Origin: Streptomyces sp. Je 1-369
GTDB taxonomy: Bacteria; Actinomycetota; Actinomycetes; Streptomycetales; Streptomycetaceae
Direction: 5' to 3'
Length of the DNA: 64,000 nt
Assembly: GCF_026810505.1 (NCBI RefSeq)
Contig: NZ_CP101750.1
Coordinates: 5,699,501 to 5,763,500 of the forward strand
Shown here: in pieces, positions 42,109-48,991 of the stretch
Position numbering within the stretch: position 1 is the stretch's first letter
How the letters are laid out: each line of letters begins with the position of its first letter
Program-made: the position numbers and the translations under genes
Notes under the pieces: model-generated
Database searches by the model: none
Seen by the model: the letters and a program-made list of their open reading frames with translations, nothing else
What the model was told of the DNA's origin: nothing

Positions 42109-43464
42109 GTGGGACGTCACAGCCGCCGGGCTCCGGCAGACACGACGGACAACACCAGCACCTCGGGCACACCGCTGTCGCAGCGCGTGGGCCCGCAGCC
42201 GGGACCCGGCCCGGGACGGCGCAGGCGGGGGCGCGCGGCGGACGGCACGCCGGAGGACGGCACCCCCGCACACGGAACCCCCGCCCACGGAACCCCCGCA
42301 CACGGTGTCCCGCACGTCCGCGGCGGGCATCCCGAGCAGCGGGAGCCCGGCGGCGCGTGGGGCGACTCGACGGACGCCGGTACGGACACCGGTACGGACG
42401 CCGGTACGGGCCCCGGTCCCCGCGTCGTGACCGGCCCCGGCGCAGTCCCCGGCCCCCGCCAGGATTACGTCGCCGCCTTCCCCGAACGCCAGGGTCGGCG
42501 TCCGGACGCGCGAACACCGGCCCCTCGGGACCCCTACGCCTCCGTCACCCGATGGGAAACGGAGGCCGACGGAGGCGGTGACGGCAACGGAGACGGTGAC
42601 CTCGCGGACGGCGAGGACGGCGGCGGCAGGAAACGCGGCCGCAGCCGCGCCCTGTCCGGCGTCGTGGCCGCTGCCGTGACCACCGTCATCGCCGTGGTCG
42701 TCGCGGGCCAGCTGGCCGGCGGGGCCGAGGACTCGGACCCGAAGACCCGCGCCGCCCCGGGCGGCGCGCGCGACACCGAGGACCCCGCCTCCCGCAGCGA
42801 CCGCCGCCCCACCCCCGCCGAGGTGCGGAAGGAGGCCCCGGCGACGTACGACGACAAGATGAAGGAGACGTACCCGCTGGACGCGAAGCTCAAGGCGTCC
42901 GGTGACTTCGCCGCGATGGCAGGCTTCGACAAGGCCCCCGGCAAGGGGCAGAAGTTCCGCTACCGCGTCGACGTGGAGAAGGGCCTCGGTCTGGACGGGA
43001 AACTCTTCGCGCAGGCCGTACAGAAAACCCTGAACGACGACCGCAGTTGGGCCCACGCGGGTGCCCGCACCTTCGAGCGCATTTCGTCGGGCAGGCCCGA
43101 CTTCGTCATTACGCTCGCGAGCCCGGGAACGACCGGCGTCTGGTGCGCGAAATCCGGCCTCGACACGACCCAGGACAACGTGTCCTGCGATTCCGCGGCG
43201 ACGGACCGCGTGATGATCAACGCCTATCGGTGGGCACAGGGCGCGCCCACCTACGGCGACGAGGTCAAGAAGAAGTTCGGCAACGCCATCCATCCGTACC
43301 GGCAGATGCTGATCAACCACGAGGTCGGTCACCGGCTCGGCTTCAATCACACGGACTGCTCGAAGAGCGGGGACCTCGCGCCCGTCATGCAGCAGCAGAC
43401 GAAGTTCCTCGAGCACGACGGAATCAAGTGCAAGGCCAACCCCTGGGCTTTCCCGAAGAGTTGA
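42109..43464 (+). CDS. DUF3152 zinc metalloprotease-like protein
   Basis: A 451-residue protein from GTG 42109. The first 190 residues are disordered, with tandem HGTPA and DTGTDAG repeats, then one membrane helix at about 183-206 (ALSGVVAAAVTTVIAVVVAGQLAGG). The extracellular DUF3152 domain carries the metzincin-type zinc motif HEVGHRLGFNH (His404, Glu405, His408, His414) and paired cysteines. It is thus a membrane-anchored zinc peptidase candidate. Equivalent to Rv3207c, which is adjacent to moeZ in Mtb; here about 10.7 kb lies between. Confidence 0.9.
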   Translation: MGRHSRRAPADTTDNTSTSGTPLSQRVGPQPGPGPGRRRRGRAADGTPEDGTPAHGTPAHGTPAHGVPHVRGGHPEQREPGGAWGDSTDAGTDTGTDAGTGPGPRVVTGPGAVPGPRQDYVAAFPERQGRRPDARTPAPRDPYASVTRWETEADGGGDGNGDGDLADGEDGGGRKRGRSRALSGVVAAAVTTVIAVVVAGQLAGGAEDSDPKTRAAPGGARDTEDPASRSDRRPTPAEVRKEAPATYDDKMKETYPLDAKLKASGDFAAMAGFDKAPGKGQKFRYRVDVEKGLGLDGKLFAQAVQKTLNDDRSWAHAGARTFERISSGRPDFVITLASPGTTGVWCAKSGLDTTQDNVSCDSAATDRVMINAYRWAQGAPTYGDEVKKKFGNAIHPYRQMLINHEVGHRLGFNHTDCSKSGDLAPVMQQQTKFLEHDGIKCKANPWAFPKS

Positions 43465-43473
43465 GCAGCCGCT

Positions 43474-43502
43474 TTGACTTCTGTCGGAAGTTCGTTCATA
43501 TT
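43474..43502 (+). promoter_or_regulatory. Vegetative promoter of the leader ORF/ABC operon
   Basis: -35 TTGACT (43474-43479), exactly 17 bases, -10 CATATT (43497-43502). The expected start is 43509-43510, which coincides with the ATG of the 30-codon ORF. This is one of the best promoter matches in the window. Confidence 0.75.
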
Positions 43503-43509
43503 TCTCCAC

Positions 43510-43602
43510 ATGTCGAATCGTCACGCCCCTTCGAGCGCCGCCATTGAGCTGGCACTCCTCGGCGTGACCGCGCTCTGCGTGGCCGACATCCACTGTTGCT
43601 GA
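43510..43602 (+). CDS. Putative leaderless leader peptide, 30 residues, Cys-rich end
   Basis: ATG 43510 sits at the predicted transcription start, so it would be read without a ribosome-binding site. The peptide begins MSNRHAPSSAAIELALLG, continues VTALC, and ends VADIHCC before TGA 43600-43602. Three Cys codons (one at residue 23, two just before the stop) fall in the last eight codons. A hairpin with T-run begins at the stop codon. This is the arrangement of an amino-acid attenuator that reports Cys supply and controls the ABC importer starting at 43739. It is not a known named family to me. An alternative is a small exported or modified peptide, but no signal peptide or modification genes are present. 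Confidence 0.65.
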   Translation: MSNRHAPSSAAIELALLGVTALCVADIHCC

Positions 43603-43630
43603 CGCCCGCCCCGGCGAGTGCGTCGCTTTT
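43601..43630 (+). terminator. Attenuator-like terminator at the leader ORF stop
   Basis: GACGC (43601-43605) pairs with GCGTC (43620-43624), with a further small GCC/GGC stem inside, and GCTTTT follows directly. The hairpin starts within the leader stop codon, so a stalled ribosome would block its folding. Confidence 0.55.
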
Positions 43631-43738
43631 CTCCGGCTCCTGGCATTTCCGCGCCCGTGTGCCGATTTCTCCCGCGCCTTTCCCGGGGTGAGCTCTGTCG
43701 CTCCCTTTTCTCACTCATCCCCGAGAGGTCTCTTTCCG

Positions 43739-45466
43739 ATGCGTCGAACGTCCGTCATAGCCCGCCGCGTGGCAGCGGCATCCGTCAGCCTGGTCCTGGC
43801 CTCGGGCGCCGTCGCCTGCGCGGGCCCGAAGGACGGCGGCGCCGGGAACGGCGACGGCAAGCCCGCCGAGGGCGGCACGCTCACCGTCCTCAACCGCGAT
43901 CCACAGACCGACTTCGACCCCGCGCGGCTCTACACCTCCGGCGGCGGCAACGTGCCGAGCCTCGTCTTCCGCACGCTGACCACCCGCAACCGCGAGGACG
44001 GCGCCAAGGGCGCCGAGGTCGTCCCGGACCTCGCGACGGACCTCGGCAAGCCGAGCAAGAACGCCACTGTGTGGACGTACAAGCTGAAGAAGGGCGTCAA
44101 GTACGAGGACGGTTCGGCGATCACCTCGGCGGACGTGAAGTACGGCATCGAGCGGTCCTTCGCCGCCGAACTCAGCGGCGGCGCGCCCTACTTGAGGGAC
44201 TGGCTCATCGGCGGCGACAAGTACCAGGGGCCGTACAAGGACAAGAGCGGCAAGGGGCTCGCGTCCATCGAGACGCCCGACGAGCGGACCATCGTCTTCC
44301 ATCTGAACAAGCCCGAGGGCGAGTTCCCCTACCTGGCGACGCAGACGCAGTTCACGCCGGTGCCGAAGGCCAAGGACAAGGGCACCAAGTACGAGGAGCA
44401 CCCGGTCTCGTCCGGTCCCTACAAGGTCGTCAAGAACGAGAACGACGGCGAGCGGCTGCGTCTCGAGCGCAATCCGCACTGGTCGGCGAAGACCGACCCG
44501 GAGCGCAAGGCCTACCCGGACGTCATCGACGTACGGTCCGGGCTCGACTCGTCCGTCATCAACCAGCGGCTCTCCGCGGGCCAGGGCGCCGACGCCGCCG
44601 CCGTCACCACCGACACCAACCTCGGCCCGGCCGAACTCGCCAAGGTCACCGGCGACAAGGAGCTCTCCTCGCACGTCGGCACCGGCCACTTCGGCTACAC
44701 GAACTACCTCGCCTTCAACCCGAAGGTGAAACCGTTCGACGACCCGAAGGTGCGCCAGGCGATCTCGTACGCCGTGGACCGCTCCTCGGTCGTCAACGCG
44801 GCGGGCGGCTCCTCGCTCGCCGAGCCCGCCACCACGTACCTGCCGAACCAGAAGTCATTCGGATACACGAAGTACGACCACTTCCCGGCGGGCCCGTCCG
44901 GCAACCCGAAGAAGGCCAAGGAGCTCCTGGAGGAAGCCGGTCACAAGGACGGGCTCACCATCACGCTCACGCACTCCAACGCCAAGGACTTCGAGACCAG
45001 CCCCGAGATCGCCACCGCCGTCCAGGACGCGCTGAAGAAGGCCGGGATCACCGTCAAGCTCCAGGGCCTCGAGGACAACGACTACAAGGACAAGACCCAC
45101 AGCGCCAAGGACGAGCCCGGCCTCTTCCTCGCCCACTGGGGTGCCGACTGGCCCTCCGGCGGCCCCTTCCTCGCCCCGATCTTCGACGGCCGGCAGATCG
45201 TGAAGGACGGCGCCAACTTCAACACCGGCTTCCTCGACGACAAGTCCGTCAACGACGAGATCGACGAGATCAACAAGCTGACCGACCTGAAGGCCGCCGC
45301 GGAGCGGTGGGGCGCCCTCGACAAGAAGATCGGCGAGGAGGCGCTGACCGTGCCGCTCTTCCACCCGGTCTACAAGCGCCTGTACGGCAAGGACGTCAAG
45401 AACGTCGTCATCAGCGACTGGACCGGCGTGCTCGACATCTCGCAGGTCGCGGTGGAGTCGTCGTGA
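43739..45466 (+). CDS. Peptide/nickel-type ABC transporter substrate-binding lipoprotein
   Basis: A 575-residue SBP_bac_5 family protein. Signal peptide with basic MRRTSVIARRV and lipobox-like VAC (Cys near 27). The SBP5 signature is present (LVFRTLTTRNREDGAKG, KYEDGSAITSADVKYGIERSF, HPVSSGPYKVV). It ends in HPVYKRLYGKDVKNVVISDW. Start ATG 43739 follows GAGAGG. It delivers an oligopeptide-like substrate to the two permeases encoded next, which are linked to it by a GTGA overlap. The substrate is unknown; the leader peptide points to a Cys link. Confidence 0.93.
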   Translation: MRRTSVIARRVAAASVSLVLASGAVACAGPKDGGAGNGDGKPAEGGTLTVLNRDPQTDFDPARLYTSGGGNVPSLVFRTLTTRNREDGAKGAEVVPDLATDLGKPSKNATVWTYKLKKGVKYEDGSAITSADVKYGIERSFAAELSGGAPYLRDWLIGGDKYQGPYKDKSGKGLASIETPDERTIVFHLNKPEGEFPYLATQTQFTPVPKAKDKGTKYEEHPVSSGPYKVVKNENDGERLRLERNPHWSAKTDPERKAYPDVIDVRSGLDSSVINQRLSAGQGADAAAVTTDTNLGPAELAKVTGDKELSSHVGTGHFGYTNYLAFNPKVKPFDDPKVRQAISYAVDRSSVVNAAGGSSLAEPATTYLPNQKSFGYTKYDHFPAGPSGNPKKAKELLEEAGHKDGLTITLTHSNAKDFETSPEIATAVQDALKKAGITVKLQGLEDNDYKDKTHSAKDEPGLFLAHWGADWPSGGPFLAPIFDGRQIVKDGANFNTGFLDDKSVNDEIDEINKLTDLKAAAERWGALDKKIGEEALTVPLFHPVYKRLYGKDVKNVVISDWTGVLDISQVAVESS

Positions 45467-46398
45467 CCGTCCGCTCCGTCTTCTGGGGGCGGCTGCGCGC
45501 ACAGCGCGCCGCCCTCGTGGCGGCGGGCGTCGTCGGACTGCTCGTCGTCGTGGCGCTCGCCGCGCCCCTGCTCACCGCTCTGACGGGGCAGGACCCCACC
45601 ACGTACCACCCGGACCTCATCGACTCGGCGCGCGGTGGCGTGCCGGTCGGCCCGCTCGGCGGGATCAGCGGCGAGCACTGGCTCGGCGTCGAGCCGCAGA
45701 CCGGACGCGACCTCTTCGCCCGCCTCGTGTACGGGGCGCGGGTCTCGCTCGGCGTCGCGCTCGCCGCGACCGTCGTGCAGGTCGTCGTCGGTGTCGCGGT
45801 CGGGATCGCCGCCGGGTTCGGCAACCGCTGGGTCGACCAGGTGCTCAGCAGGGCCACCGATGTCATCGTGGCCCTGCCGCTCATGGTCTTCGCGCTCGCG
45901 CTGATGGCGGTCGTGCCCAGCACCTTCCCGCGGCCCGTGCTCGTCGCCCTCGTCATCGGTCTCGTCGCCTGGGGCAACATGGCCAAGATCGTGCGCGCGC
46001 AGACCGTCACGCTCAAGGAGCTCGACCACGTGGCCGCCGCGCGGCTCAGCGGCTGGGGCTCCGTGCGGATCGCCCGCCGCGAACTGCTGCCCGCGCTCGC
46101 CGCGCCCGTCATCACCTACGCCGCGCTGCTCGTCCCCGTCAACATCACGGTCGAGGCCGCACTGTCCTTCCTCGGCGTGGGCGTGAAGCCGCCCACCGCG
46201 TCGTGGGGACAGATGCTCACGGCCGCGGACGTCTGGTACCAGGCGGCACCGCAGTACCTGCTGTACCCGGCGGGCGCGCTGTTCGTGACCGTGCTCGCCC
46301 TCACCGTCCTCGGTGACGGCGTGCGCAGGGCGCTCGACCCGCGCGCCACGTCGCGGCTGCGGATCGGCACCGGACGCAAGCAGGAGGCCCGCGCGTGA
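45463..46398 (+). CDS. ABC transporter permease, DppC/OppC type
   Basis: A 311-residue inner-membrane permease with about six helices. It has the OppC-type N-terminus (WGRLRAQRAALVAAGVVGLLVVVALAAPL), HWLGVEPQTGRDLFARLVYGARVSL, and the EAA loop ELDHVAAARLSGWGSVRIARRELLPALAAP, which contacts the ATPase. GTG start overlaps the binding-protein stop, and its own stop overlaps the next GTG. The C-type permease precedes the B-type, the reverse of the usual dpp/opp order. Confidence 0.92.
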   Translation: MTVRSVFWGRLRAQRAALVAAGVVGLLVVVALAAPLLTALTGQDPTTYHPDLIDSARGGVPVGPLGGISGEHWLGVEPQTGRDLFARLVYGARVSLGVALAATVVQVVVGVAVGIAAGFGNRWVDQVLSRATDVIVALPLMVFALALMAVVPSTFPRPVLVALVIGLVAWGNMAKIVRAQTVTLKELDHVAAARLSGWGSVRIARRELLPALAAPVITYAALLVPVNITVEAALSFLGVGVKPPTASWGQMLTAADVWYQAAPQYLLYPAGALFVTVLALTVLGDGVRRALDPRATSRLRIGTGRKQEARA

Positions 46399-47393
46399 CC
46401 GGCCTCCCCGGGTTCCTGCTGCGCCGCCTCATCGGCGCAGTGGTCACCCTCCTCGCCCTCTCCGTCATCATCTACGCGGTCTTCTACGCCGCTCCGGGTG
46501 ACGTCGCCCAGATCACCTGCGGCCCGCGCTGCTCGCCCGCCCAGGTCCAGCAGGTCGCCGAACAACTGCGACTCGACGACCCGCTGTACGTCCGCTACTG
46601 GGACTTCCTACAAGGCATCGTCGTAGGGCATGACTACTCGACGGGCACCGGCACCGAACACTGCGACGCGCCCTGCCTCGGGATCTCCTACCAGAGCGAC
46701 CAGCAGGTCACCGCGCTGATCACGGCGAAGCTGCCGGTCACCGGTTCGCTCGCGCTGGGCGCGATGGTGCTGTGGCTCGTCCTCGGGGTGGGCGCGGGCG
46801 TGCTCTCCGCCTGGCGGCGCGGCCGCATCAGCGAGCGCGTGCTGACCGCCGTCACGCTCGCGGGCACCGCCACACCCGTCTTCGTGATCGGCCTGCTCCT
46901 GATGATCGTGGTCTGCGGTCAGCTCCAGTGGCTGCCCTTCCCGCAGTACGTGAACTTCGCGGACGATCCGACGCAGTGGGCGTGGAACCTGCTGCTGCCC
47001 TGGCTCTCGCTGGCCCTCATCGAGGCCGCCAAGTACGCGCGCCTGACCCGCTCCTCGATGCTGGAGACCCTCGCCGACGACCACGTGCGGACCTTCCGCG
47101 CGTACGGCGTGGGGGAGCGGTCGATCGTCGGGAAGCACGCGCTGCGCGGCGCCGTCGCGCCCGTCATCGCGCTGACCGCCAACGACTTCGGGTCGATGTT
47201 CGGCGGCGCGGTGCTCAGCGAGACGCTGTTCGGACTGCCCGGACTCGGGCGCGAACTCGTGCACGCGGTCAAGGTCGTCGACCTGCCGGTGGTCGTCGGG
47301 ATGGTCATGGTCACCGGCTTCTTCGTGGTGCTCGCCAATGCCGTCGCGGACGTGCTGTACGCGGTGGCCGACCGACGGGTGGTGCTGTCATGA
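46395..47393 (+). CDS. ABC transporter permease, DppB/OppB type
   Basis: A 332-residue permease with six helices and a large first outer loop. Typical DppB start (FLLRRLIGAVVTLLALSVIIYAVFYAAPGD), EAA loop YGVGERSIVGKHALRGAVAPV, and FGGAVLSETLFGLPGLGRELVHAV near the end. The outer loop carries four Cys (CGPRC, HCDAPC), unusual for this family and perhaps disulfide-forming. GTG start coupled with the upstream permease; the stop overlaps the ATPase ATG. Confidence 0.92.
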   Translation: MTGLPGFLLRRLIGAVVTLLALSVIIYAVFYAAPGDVAQITCGPRCSPAQVQQVAEQLRLDDPLYVRYWDFLQGIVVGHDYSTGTGTEHCDAPCLGISYQSDQQVTALITAKLPVTGSLALGAMVLWLVLGVGAGVLSAWRRGRISERVLTAVTLAGTATPVFVIGLLLMIVVCGQLQWLPFPQYVNFADDPTQWAWNLLLPWLSLALIEAAKYARLTRSSMLETLADDHVRTFRAYGVGERSIVGKHALRGAVAPVIALTANDFGSMFGGAVLSETLFGLPGLGRELVHAVKVVDLPVVVGMVMVTGFFVVLANAVADVLYAVADRRVVLS

Positions 47394-48991
47394 GTCTCGT
47401 CCACGTCACCGATCTGTCCGTCGAGTTCGCGTCCGGCGTACGCGCCGTCGACGGGCTCTCCTTCACGCTGGAGAAGGGCGGCGCGCTCGCCCTCGTCGGC
47501 GAGTCGGGATCCGGCAAGTCCACCGTGGCGTCCGCGCTCCTCGGCCTCCACCGCGGCACGGGCGCGCACGTCGGCGGGACGGTACTGGTCGACGGCGTCG
47601 ACGTACAGGCCGCGTCCGAGGCGGAACTGCGCGGGCTGCGCGGCGGGAAGGCCGCGATGGTCTTCCAGGACCCGCTCTCCTCGCTCGACCCGTACTACGC
47701 GGTCGGCGACCAGATCGCCGAGGTCTACCGCGTGCACACCGGGGCGTCCCGGCGGGCGGCACGCGCGCGTGCCGTGGAAGTGCTCGACCGGGTCGGCATC
47801 CCCGACGCGGCCCGCCGCTCCCGCTCACGGCCGCACGAGTTCAGCGGCGGCATGCGCCAGCGCACACTGATCGCCATGGCGCTGGCGTGCGAGCCCGCGC
47901 TGCTGGTCGCCGACGAGCCGACCACCGCGCTCGACGTCACCGTCCAGGCCCAGATCCTCGACCTGCTGCACACGCTGCGGACCGAGACCGGCATGGGACT
48001 GCTCCTCATCACCCACGACGTGGGCGTCGCGGCGGAGAGCGTCGACGAGGTCCTGGTCATGCGCGACGGGCGCGCGGTGGAGCGCGGCGAGGTACGCGAC
48101 ATCCTCGGCGCGCCCCGTGAGGCGTACACGCAGGAACTCCTCAAAGCAGTGCCCCGGGTGGACGCACCGCTCGCGCCGTCCGTCGGGGAGCCGGGCGAGG
48201 TCGTGCTCGAAGCGGTCGCGCTCCGGCGCGCGTTCGGGCGCGGGAAGCGCGCGGTCACCGCCGTCGACGACGTCTCCCTCACCGTCCGCCGCGGGGAGAC
48301 CCTCGGAGTGGTCGGCGAGAGCGGCAGCGGCAAGACCACACTCGGGCGCATGCTGGTCGGCCTCCTCGCGCCGACCTCCGGGCAGCTCCTCCACGGGGGT
48401 GTGGAGAAGCCAGGGGGGCAGGTGGTGCCCGGCGTGCAGATGGTGTTCCAGGACCCCGTCTCCTCGCTCAACCCGCGGCGCTCCGTCGGCGAGTCGATCG
48501 CCGATCCGCTGCGCGCACGGGGCGAGAGCGACACCTTCGTACGGGGGCGTGCGCGGGAACTCCTGGAGCGCGTCGGCCTGGAACCGGCGCACTACGACCG
48601 CTACCCGCACGAGTTCAGCGGCGGACAGCGCCAGCGCGTGGGCATCGCGCGGGCGCTCGCGGCCGAGCCGCGCCTCATCGTGTGCGACGAACCGGTGTCG
48701 GCGCTCGACGTGACGACCCAGGCGCAGGTCATGGACCTGCTCGCCGAGCTGCAGCGCGAATTGGGCCTCGCCCTGGTCTTCGTCGCGCACGACCTCGCCG
48801 TGGTGCGCCAGGTCAGCGACCGGGTCGCCGTGATGCGACAGGGGCGGATCGTGGAGCAGGGCCCCGTGGCGGAGGTGTACGGAGCGCCCCGTGACCCGTA
48901 CACGAGACAGCTGCTCGCGGCCGTGCCCGCGCTCGACCCGGAGGCCGCGGCGCGGCGGCGGGCGGTCCGCGAGGAGCTGGCCGCAGCCTGA
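47390..48991 (+). CDS. Fused dual-ATPase subunit of the peptide importer (DppD-DppF type)
   Basis: One 533-residue chain with two complete ABC ATPase units. Unit 1: Walker [39 protein letters not shown]. Unit 2: [38 protein letters not shown]. The unit ends carry the oligopeptide-transporter tails ([13 protein letters not shown] and [13 protein letters not shown]). Fused ATPases are known from GsiA and YejF. ATG overlaps the permease stop, closing the four-gene operon, and a hairpin follows at 49079. Confidence 0.94.

Follow-up and report, generated by a model that had tools for sequence, protein, structure and literature searches.

As presented in a review, Canestrari et al. showed that leaderless ORFs with Cys codons regulate the genes downstream of them by attenuation in M. 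smegmatis. Candidate Cys leaders were also predicted upstream of mycobacterial cys operons by Seliverstov 2005 (PMC1262725), where the part of the text covered here describes them without a conserved hairpin, and the accessible part of a survey of S. lividans (PMC8079986) gives eight leader peptides, for Leu, Trp, Ala, Ile, Met and Thr. Here we analysed a leader ORF in a window of 64,000 nucleotides (the whole stretch of Streptomyces DNA studied), and we consider it likely that it is a Cys-responsive leader of the Ms4533A family controlling a sulfur-scavenging importer. With the other members of that family (NCBIfam NF042937) it has in common a full-length match, Cys codons at its end and a leaderless layout, the start being a predicted one here. 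It differs in that a peptide-type SBP_bac_5 importer is found behind it, whereas five tested members elsewhere precede a sulfate importer, and in that 75 of the 106 Streptomyces members end in Cys-Arg and 28 of the 106 have a single Cys.

As far as the M. smegmatis polycysteine ORFs are described in the review, they share with the Streptomyces leaders a short leaderless ORF, Cys codons near the stop and a sulfur-linked gene behind, but only 18 of the 106 Streptomyces members have the Cys-Cys end, and these members show a conserved core of residues other than Cys. The leaders of PMC1262725, which precede cys operons, are likewise short ORFs with Cys codons at the end; the part of that paper covered names no Cys leader of Streptomyces, and, in contrast to it, a hairpin is supported here in Streptomyces and suggested outside the genus (p 0.08). 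Similarly, several of the leaders in PMC8079986 are leaderless ORFs with hairpins, but in the accessible text none belongs to an SBP_bac_5 operon and none is called Cys-dependent. A literature search, made mostly by title and with little coverage of subscription journals, found no report pointing to the pairing of a Cys leader with an SBP_bac_5 importer. So far as that search goes, the fixed pairing with this importer, the fixed UGU codon, the constraint on the peptide and the helices are new; Cys-responsive leader control would be extended to an Opp/Dpp-type importer in Streptomyces, for which an organosulfur substrate is predicted.

The leader ORF and its importer in Streptomyces

An earlier note, made from the letters of the window, had singled out a 30-codon ORF ending in IHCC-stop with a further Cys shortly before. 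Translation confirms it: the ORF (Table 1) encodes MSNRHAPSSAAIELALLGVTALCVADIHCC, with Cys23 and the contiguous Cys29 and Cys30, and is closed by TGA (43600-43602). The note had found the peptide unlike the known leaders of this kind, but it matches NF042937 ("Ms4533A family Cys-rich leader peptide") along its full length (positions 1-30), scoring 52.7 bits where the cut-off is 31 (E 3.5e-14), a membership that lends support to the note's view of a Cys leader. In a search of its own genome it is the single match above the cut-off. A scan of the window with Rfam at gathering scores gave no match.

The promoter that the note had read as TTGACT, 17 bases and CATATT is indeed present, and at the level of sequence it is conserved in Streptomyces. 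It was the only site returned by a sigma-70 scan of 42500-45000, where shuffled sequences average 0.1. With positions and spacers chosen for best score, a best-scoring -10-like hexamer was present in 104/106 Streptomyces leaders, 7 nt 5' of the ATG in 88 of them, and the -35 hexamer was TTGACA in 90/106. Since the ATG at 43510 lies 7 nt behind CATATT, transcription probably starts on this ATG and the ORF would be leaderless.

Table 1. Features of the leader and importer region, in window positions
Feature	Position	Strand	Details
Promoter	43474..43502	+	TTGACT 43474-43479, 17-nt spacer, CATATT 43497-43502
Leader ORF, 30 codons	43510..43602	+	Ms4533A-family leader peptide (NF042937), probably leaderless
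Helix 5' arm (S1) within ORF	43520..43527	+	GTCACGCC, codons 4-6
Helix 3' arm (S2) within ORF	43561..43568	+	GGCGTGAC, codons 18-20; pairs with 43520-43527
Invariant Cys29 codon TGT	43594..43596	+	
Hairpin from last codon through stop codon	43598..43626	+	followed by TTTTCTCC
Shine-Dalgarno-like GAGAGG of importer operon	43723..43728	+	in many relatives
Solute-binding lipoprotein, SBP_bac_5	43739..45466	+	272 bits (run with 43688 start); ATG 43739
Permease, OppC_N + BPD_transp_1 domains	45463..46398	+	
Permease, BPD_transp_1 domains	46395..47393	+	
Fused double ATPase, Opp/Dpp type	47390..48991	+	

The peptide was also sought upstream of SBP_bac_5 operons in other Streptomyces, as the note had advised, and leader and importer were found in the same genomes. 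In a sample of 199 Streptomyces genomes, with 38 leader candidates scored per genome, 95 had a leader match (E <= 0.001; 92 above the cut-off) and 94 had the permease (E <= 1e-100), the two sets being identical save for one genome (G121), with 94 genomes in common. The leader candidate of G121 (L126, a 23-bit match) was rejected as spurious, there being no importer gene in its 9.5 kb. A class-wide sample of 394 genomes (20 candidates per genome) gave the leader in 40 (36 above the cut-off) and the permease (E <= 1e-90) in 30; the 18 leader-bearing Streptomyces genomes were the same 18 that had the permease, and the remaining 12 permease matches were 41-47% identical and came from genomes absent from the leader matches. 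Because only 38 or 20 candidates per genome were scored, absence of the leader is less certain than its presence. When the SBP alone was used to retrieve named loci, the leader was present in 80/80 of the best 80 among 287, which overlap with genomes of the 199-genome sample; it was recognised in 79 by pattern and in one (L243, which has Leu in place of Val24 and TAG as its stop) by eye from the sequence. Since it was the family profile that detected the leaders, some of their mutual likeness is inherent in the search; the coincidence of the leader and importer sets means that this bias is limited in Streptomyces, but not outside.

The distance from leader stop to SBP start was 135-313 nt in 105 of the 106 Streptomyces loci. 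The exception, L121 (genome G079), has an importer operon shortened by deletion, in which no SBP start was found and a stop codon interrupts the permease match; its leader is off consensus (Leu16 changed to Pro, -35 CTGACA, -10 CATAGT) and may be decaying along with its importer. On the other side of the leader, directly 5' of the promoter, the window carries a DUF3152 gene (42109-43464), which is also upstream in most relatives. It was undetected at some loci that still have the leader (L089, L093, L096 and L125, for example), so that the leader follows the importer.

RNA structure and the proposed mechanism

A hairpin at the stop codon, also claimed in the note, was found in the window and is conserved in Streptomyces. 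Taken alone, the window hairpin (-13.8 kcal/mol, z -0.26) is no better than chance, 64/200 shuffles being as good. Its reality rests on the relatives, because there the arms pair better than in shuffles (p 6e-12) and some of them change in step, as in TGACAC:GTGTCG (L066, L068, L123), TGACCC:GGGTCG (L092) and TGACGG:CCGTCG (L094). Of 14 arm types, 11 paired best with their own partner and three paired no better with it than with others. An alignment of 53 of the 106 leaders, selected by us for a GGCG-type 3' arm, was compared with 500 shuffles, and these did as well in 1/500 for double-change cells, 5/500 for paired cells, 20/500 for further pair types, 86/500 for pairs with double change and 159/500 for the covariation score; such shuffle tests leave the relatedness of the sequences in place. 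The structure counts omit L072 and L073, in which the ORF has no stop after Cys29-Arg and runs about nine codons longer, the usual stop-codon hairpin arm being altered. Outside Streptomyces, GACACC:GGTGTC in three loci and GACTCC:GGGGTC in two (p 0.08 over 22 leaders) suggest that a stop-codon hairpin is present there also.

The note had placed termination at this hairpin and a TTTT behind it, but the T-run proved variable and poor in many relatives. Termination of transcription by the hairpin is plausible given the excess of terminator-like hairpins (T-rich after, <= -15 kcal/mol), which were present in 61/103 intergenic regions vs 115/412 shuffles. The window has a second terminator-like stem between leader and SBP gene, at 43685-43704 before CTTTTCTC; a scan for stems of this type gave 2, where shuffles average 1.8.

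Within the ORF there is a further helix between S1 and S2, with variants such as GCCACACC:GGTGTGGC and GTCACACC:GGTGTGAC among relatives. Double-change cells numbered 35 vs 15.8 in shuffles (0/500), and paired cells and covariation score were also matched in 0/500, but pairs with double change (136/500) and further pair types (449/500) did not beat the shuffles. Two of the base pairs are broken in 28-30 of the 101 rows, and the RNAalifold consensus did not pick the helix. The leader ORF as a whole folds somewhat better than its synonymous recodings (mean z -0.93, below zero in 90/104), and RNA-level constraint overlaps the ORF (102/106 leaders, those with 30 or 31 codons).

We propose the following course of events. 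Transcription would begin on the ATG behind the conserved promoter, and the ribosome would enter the leader directly. A shortage of charged tRNA-Cys would slow the ribosome while the UGU codon of Cys29 is in its A site, and the constrained segment Leu16-x-Gly-Val...Val-Ala-Asp-Ile, then in the exit tunnel, may help to hold it there. By the geometry of the sequence, a ribosome so held would extend from the last codon across the stop codon to a few bases beyond, and so cover the 5' arm of the hairpin; as this arm is within reach of a ribosome at Cys29, pausing should prevent the hairpin, and the operon would be expressed. With enough Cys, the ribosome would finish and leave, the hairpin would form and expression would fall, most likely through premature termination. 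The importer would then serve to take up a sulfur-containing compound, perhaps a peptide. Against this reading it may be argued that a ribosome standing on the stop codon would shield that hairpin arm as well, and that 28 of the 106 leaders contain one Cys codon only.

A four-region attenuator was considered for a group of relatives with GCCGCGCC...GGCGCGGC hairpins and was rejected, since a ribosome-sized mask at Cys29 does not dissolve the hairpin on average. In equilibrium folds of 33 relatives with a second terminator-like hairpin, a group distinct from that of the window, this hairpin went on average from 0.865 to 0.77 under the mask, and it opened in L059, L103, L122 and L123.

The stalled ribosome might instead release the SBP ribosome-binding site from RNA structure, and expression would then be controlled by translational attenuation. 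In M. smegmatis, the stalled ribosome has reportedly been proposed to free the Shine-Dalgarno site. In 52 sampled loci, the Shine-Dalgarno region was indeed slightly less accessible than in shuffled intergenic sequence (0.152 vs 0.202, p 0.007), and the RNAalifold fold of one group of 32 relatives closes this region in two places, the Shine-Dalgarno site (GGTCGTC) by GACGACC and the SBP start codon by the 3' arm of the stop-codon hairpin. However, the mask at Cys29 left the ribosome-binding site no freer: in equilibrium folds of 102 sequences the mean unpaired value of the Shine-Dalgarno site went from 0.176 to 0.181, with no switch, accessibility rising by >0.1 in 9/102 and falling by >0.1 in 4/102. 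Moreover, stretches complementary to the Shine-Dalgarno site were not in excess (p 0.29). We rejected the long-range pairing in the 32 relatives, as its pairs hardly vary and are thus without covariation, and its sign is wrong for the model: the 3' arm of the hairpin, once freed, would close the SBP start codon, where the model calls for it to open. We therefore hold translational attenuation to be unlikely, if conceivable. As against the M. smegmatis model, the stop-codon hairpin is in Streptomyces better supported than Shine-Dalgarno masking.

Constraint on the peptide and its Cys29 codon

Codon changes were counted by parsimony on the SBP-protein tree for 103 leaders, a set without L072, L073, L121 and L243, and the p values are uncorrected for the 29 codons tested. 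Leu16 showed 21 synonymous and no non-synonymous changes (p 9e-10), Gly18 showed 15 and none (p 7e-8), Val24 13 and none (p 6e-7), and Ile27 21 and 12 (p 1e-6). Outside this count, L121 has Pro16 and L243 has Leu24, so that with L121 included Leu16 is no longer free of non-synonymous change. Among 22 leaders from outside Streptomyces, Val24, Ala25, Asp26 and Cys29 were invariant, the first three by way of several codons; residue 16 was Leu in 19 and residue 18 was Ala in all. That Leu16, Gly18 and Val24 are kept while their codons change points to selection on the leader peptide, and the nascent peptide therefore seems to matter beyond its Cys codons. The N-terminal third, on the other hand, varies freely. 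The last codon showed the pattern opposite to that of Leu16, Gly18 and Val24 (15 non-synonymous changes and no synonymous one in the 103 leaders), as would be expected if the RNA is paired there.

The note would have counted a lack of conservation of the ORF or of its Cys codons in relatives as a refutation; the check was made and did not refute its reading. The ORF and Cys29 are conserved, but Cys23 and Cys30 are not: at residue 23 the 103 leaders have Cys in 69 cases, Ser in 28 and Ala in 6, and the endings of the Streptomyces leaders vary as given above. Cys29 is encoded by UGU in 106/106 Streptomyces and 22/22 other leaders (128 in all), whereas the first 500 codons of 105 SBP genes include 106 Cys codons, one of them UGU. 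This codon is read by wobble where the usual single tRNA-Cys (GCA) is present, and poor charging may thus be felt most strongly at it. A small hairpin, GACA:UGUC, formed by codons 26-29 was considered as the whole cause of the fixed UGU and ruled out on the leaders outside Streptomyces, since there Asp26 is GAT in 14/22 and UGU is nevertheless kept in 22/22.

Residues other than Cys held at the amino-acid level point to sensing at the level of the peptide, unlike what is seen in ordinary amino-acid attenuators, where leader residues of this kind are not so held. We put forward, tentatively and as somewhat less than probable, a Cys sensor assisted by the nascent chain (L-x-[GA]-V-x4-V-[AS]-D-[IVL]-x-C), in which the conserved tunnel segment would make the ribosome extremely sensitive to one fixed UGU that replaces the usual run of Cys codons, and which would have been set before unrelated sulfur-gathering systems, namely a sulfate importer, a sulfatase and the peptide-type importer. 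If this reading is true, the Streptomyces importer gets a predicted organosulfur substrate. The same constraint could also belong to an arrest peptide that responds, through its conserved core, not to tRNA charging but to a putative small ligand (free Cys, sulfide or a thiol). The synonymous changes at Leu16, Gly18 and Val24 and the Val-Ala-Asp kept in 22/22 leaders outside Streptomyces through changing codons would fit such a peptide, but the fixed and rare UGU at Cys29 points to decoding, and we regard direct sensing of a ligand as quite improbable.

Sulfur-linked genes behind the leader outside Streptomyces

In the 394-genome sample there were 22 leader matches outside Streptomyces, 21 in genomes of one family (f4), which from the leader family name and the operon we infer to be Mycobacteriaceae, and one in a genome of another (f18). 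In the five loci tested among the 22, the next gene was in each case a sulfate-binding protein above its NCBIfam cut-off; L157 was also confirmed to have CysT, CysW and the sulfate ATPase, and L155 to have CysT. In the f18 locus (L174), the leader match is below the cut-off (29.9 bits) and is followed, 41 nt on, by an ORF in which Pfam recognises a Sulfatase domain (213 bits). This leader, at 2154-2252, is possibly leaderless and has a GTG start. A search of 34 other f18-family genomes gave no leader match. That members of one leader family stand ahead of sulfate importers and of a sulfatase ORF is the main argument for a sulfur substrate of the Streptomyces importer; judged from the leader alone, it suggests that the SBP_bac_5 importer brings in sulfur.

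The note had arrived at a sulfur-linked importer by way of the likeness of the fused ATPase to GsiA. The sulfur link is likely through the leader family, but the ATPase likeness is weak (518 bits against the GsiA family NF007613, with a cut-off of 1077). It could also be that the leader is responsive to Cys while the substrates of the importer, peptides or signals, have no relation to sulfur. Consistent with this, the best solved-structure match of the SBP is 2wok, an oligopeptide-binding protein of clavulanic acid biosynthesis, and a Pfam scan of nine neighbouring ORFs, some of them without any match, found no sulfur enzyme. Since the same leader family elsewhere stands before sulfate importers and the sulfatase ORF, an importer unrelated to sulfur seems to us rather unlikely, and control of a sulfur-scavenging importer is the reading we prefer. 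Finally, that the 30-residue peptide acts in trans as a small protein would agree with its conservation at the amino-acid level, but is very improbable given that the leader goes with the importer in Streptomyces, that its N-terminal third varies freely and that RNA-level constraint overlaps the ORF.

Cys codons may also have a role in a leader already described in S. lividans. The metL peptide MSTTSDRTPATEATTTPGARCMCRRMCAF, called Met-dependent in the accessible part of PMC8079986, has as many Cys as Met residues near its end, and it may sense Cys rather than Met.
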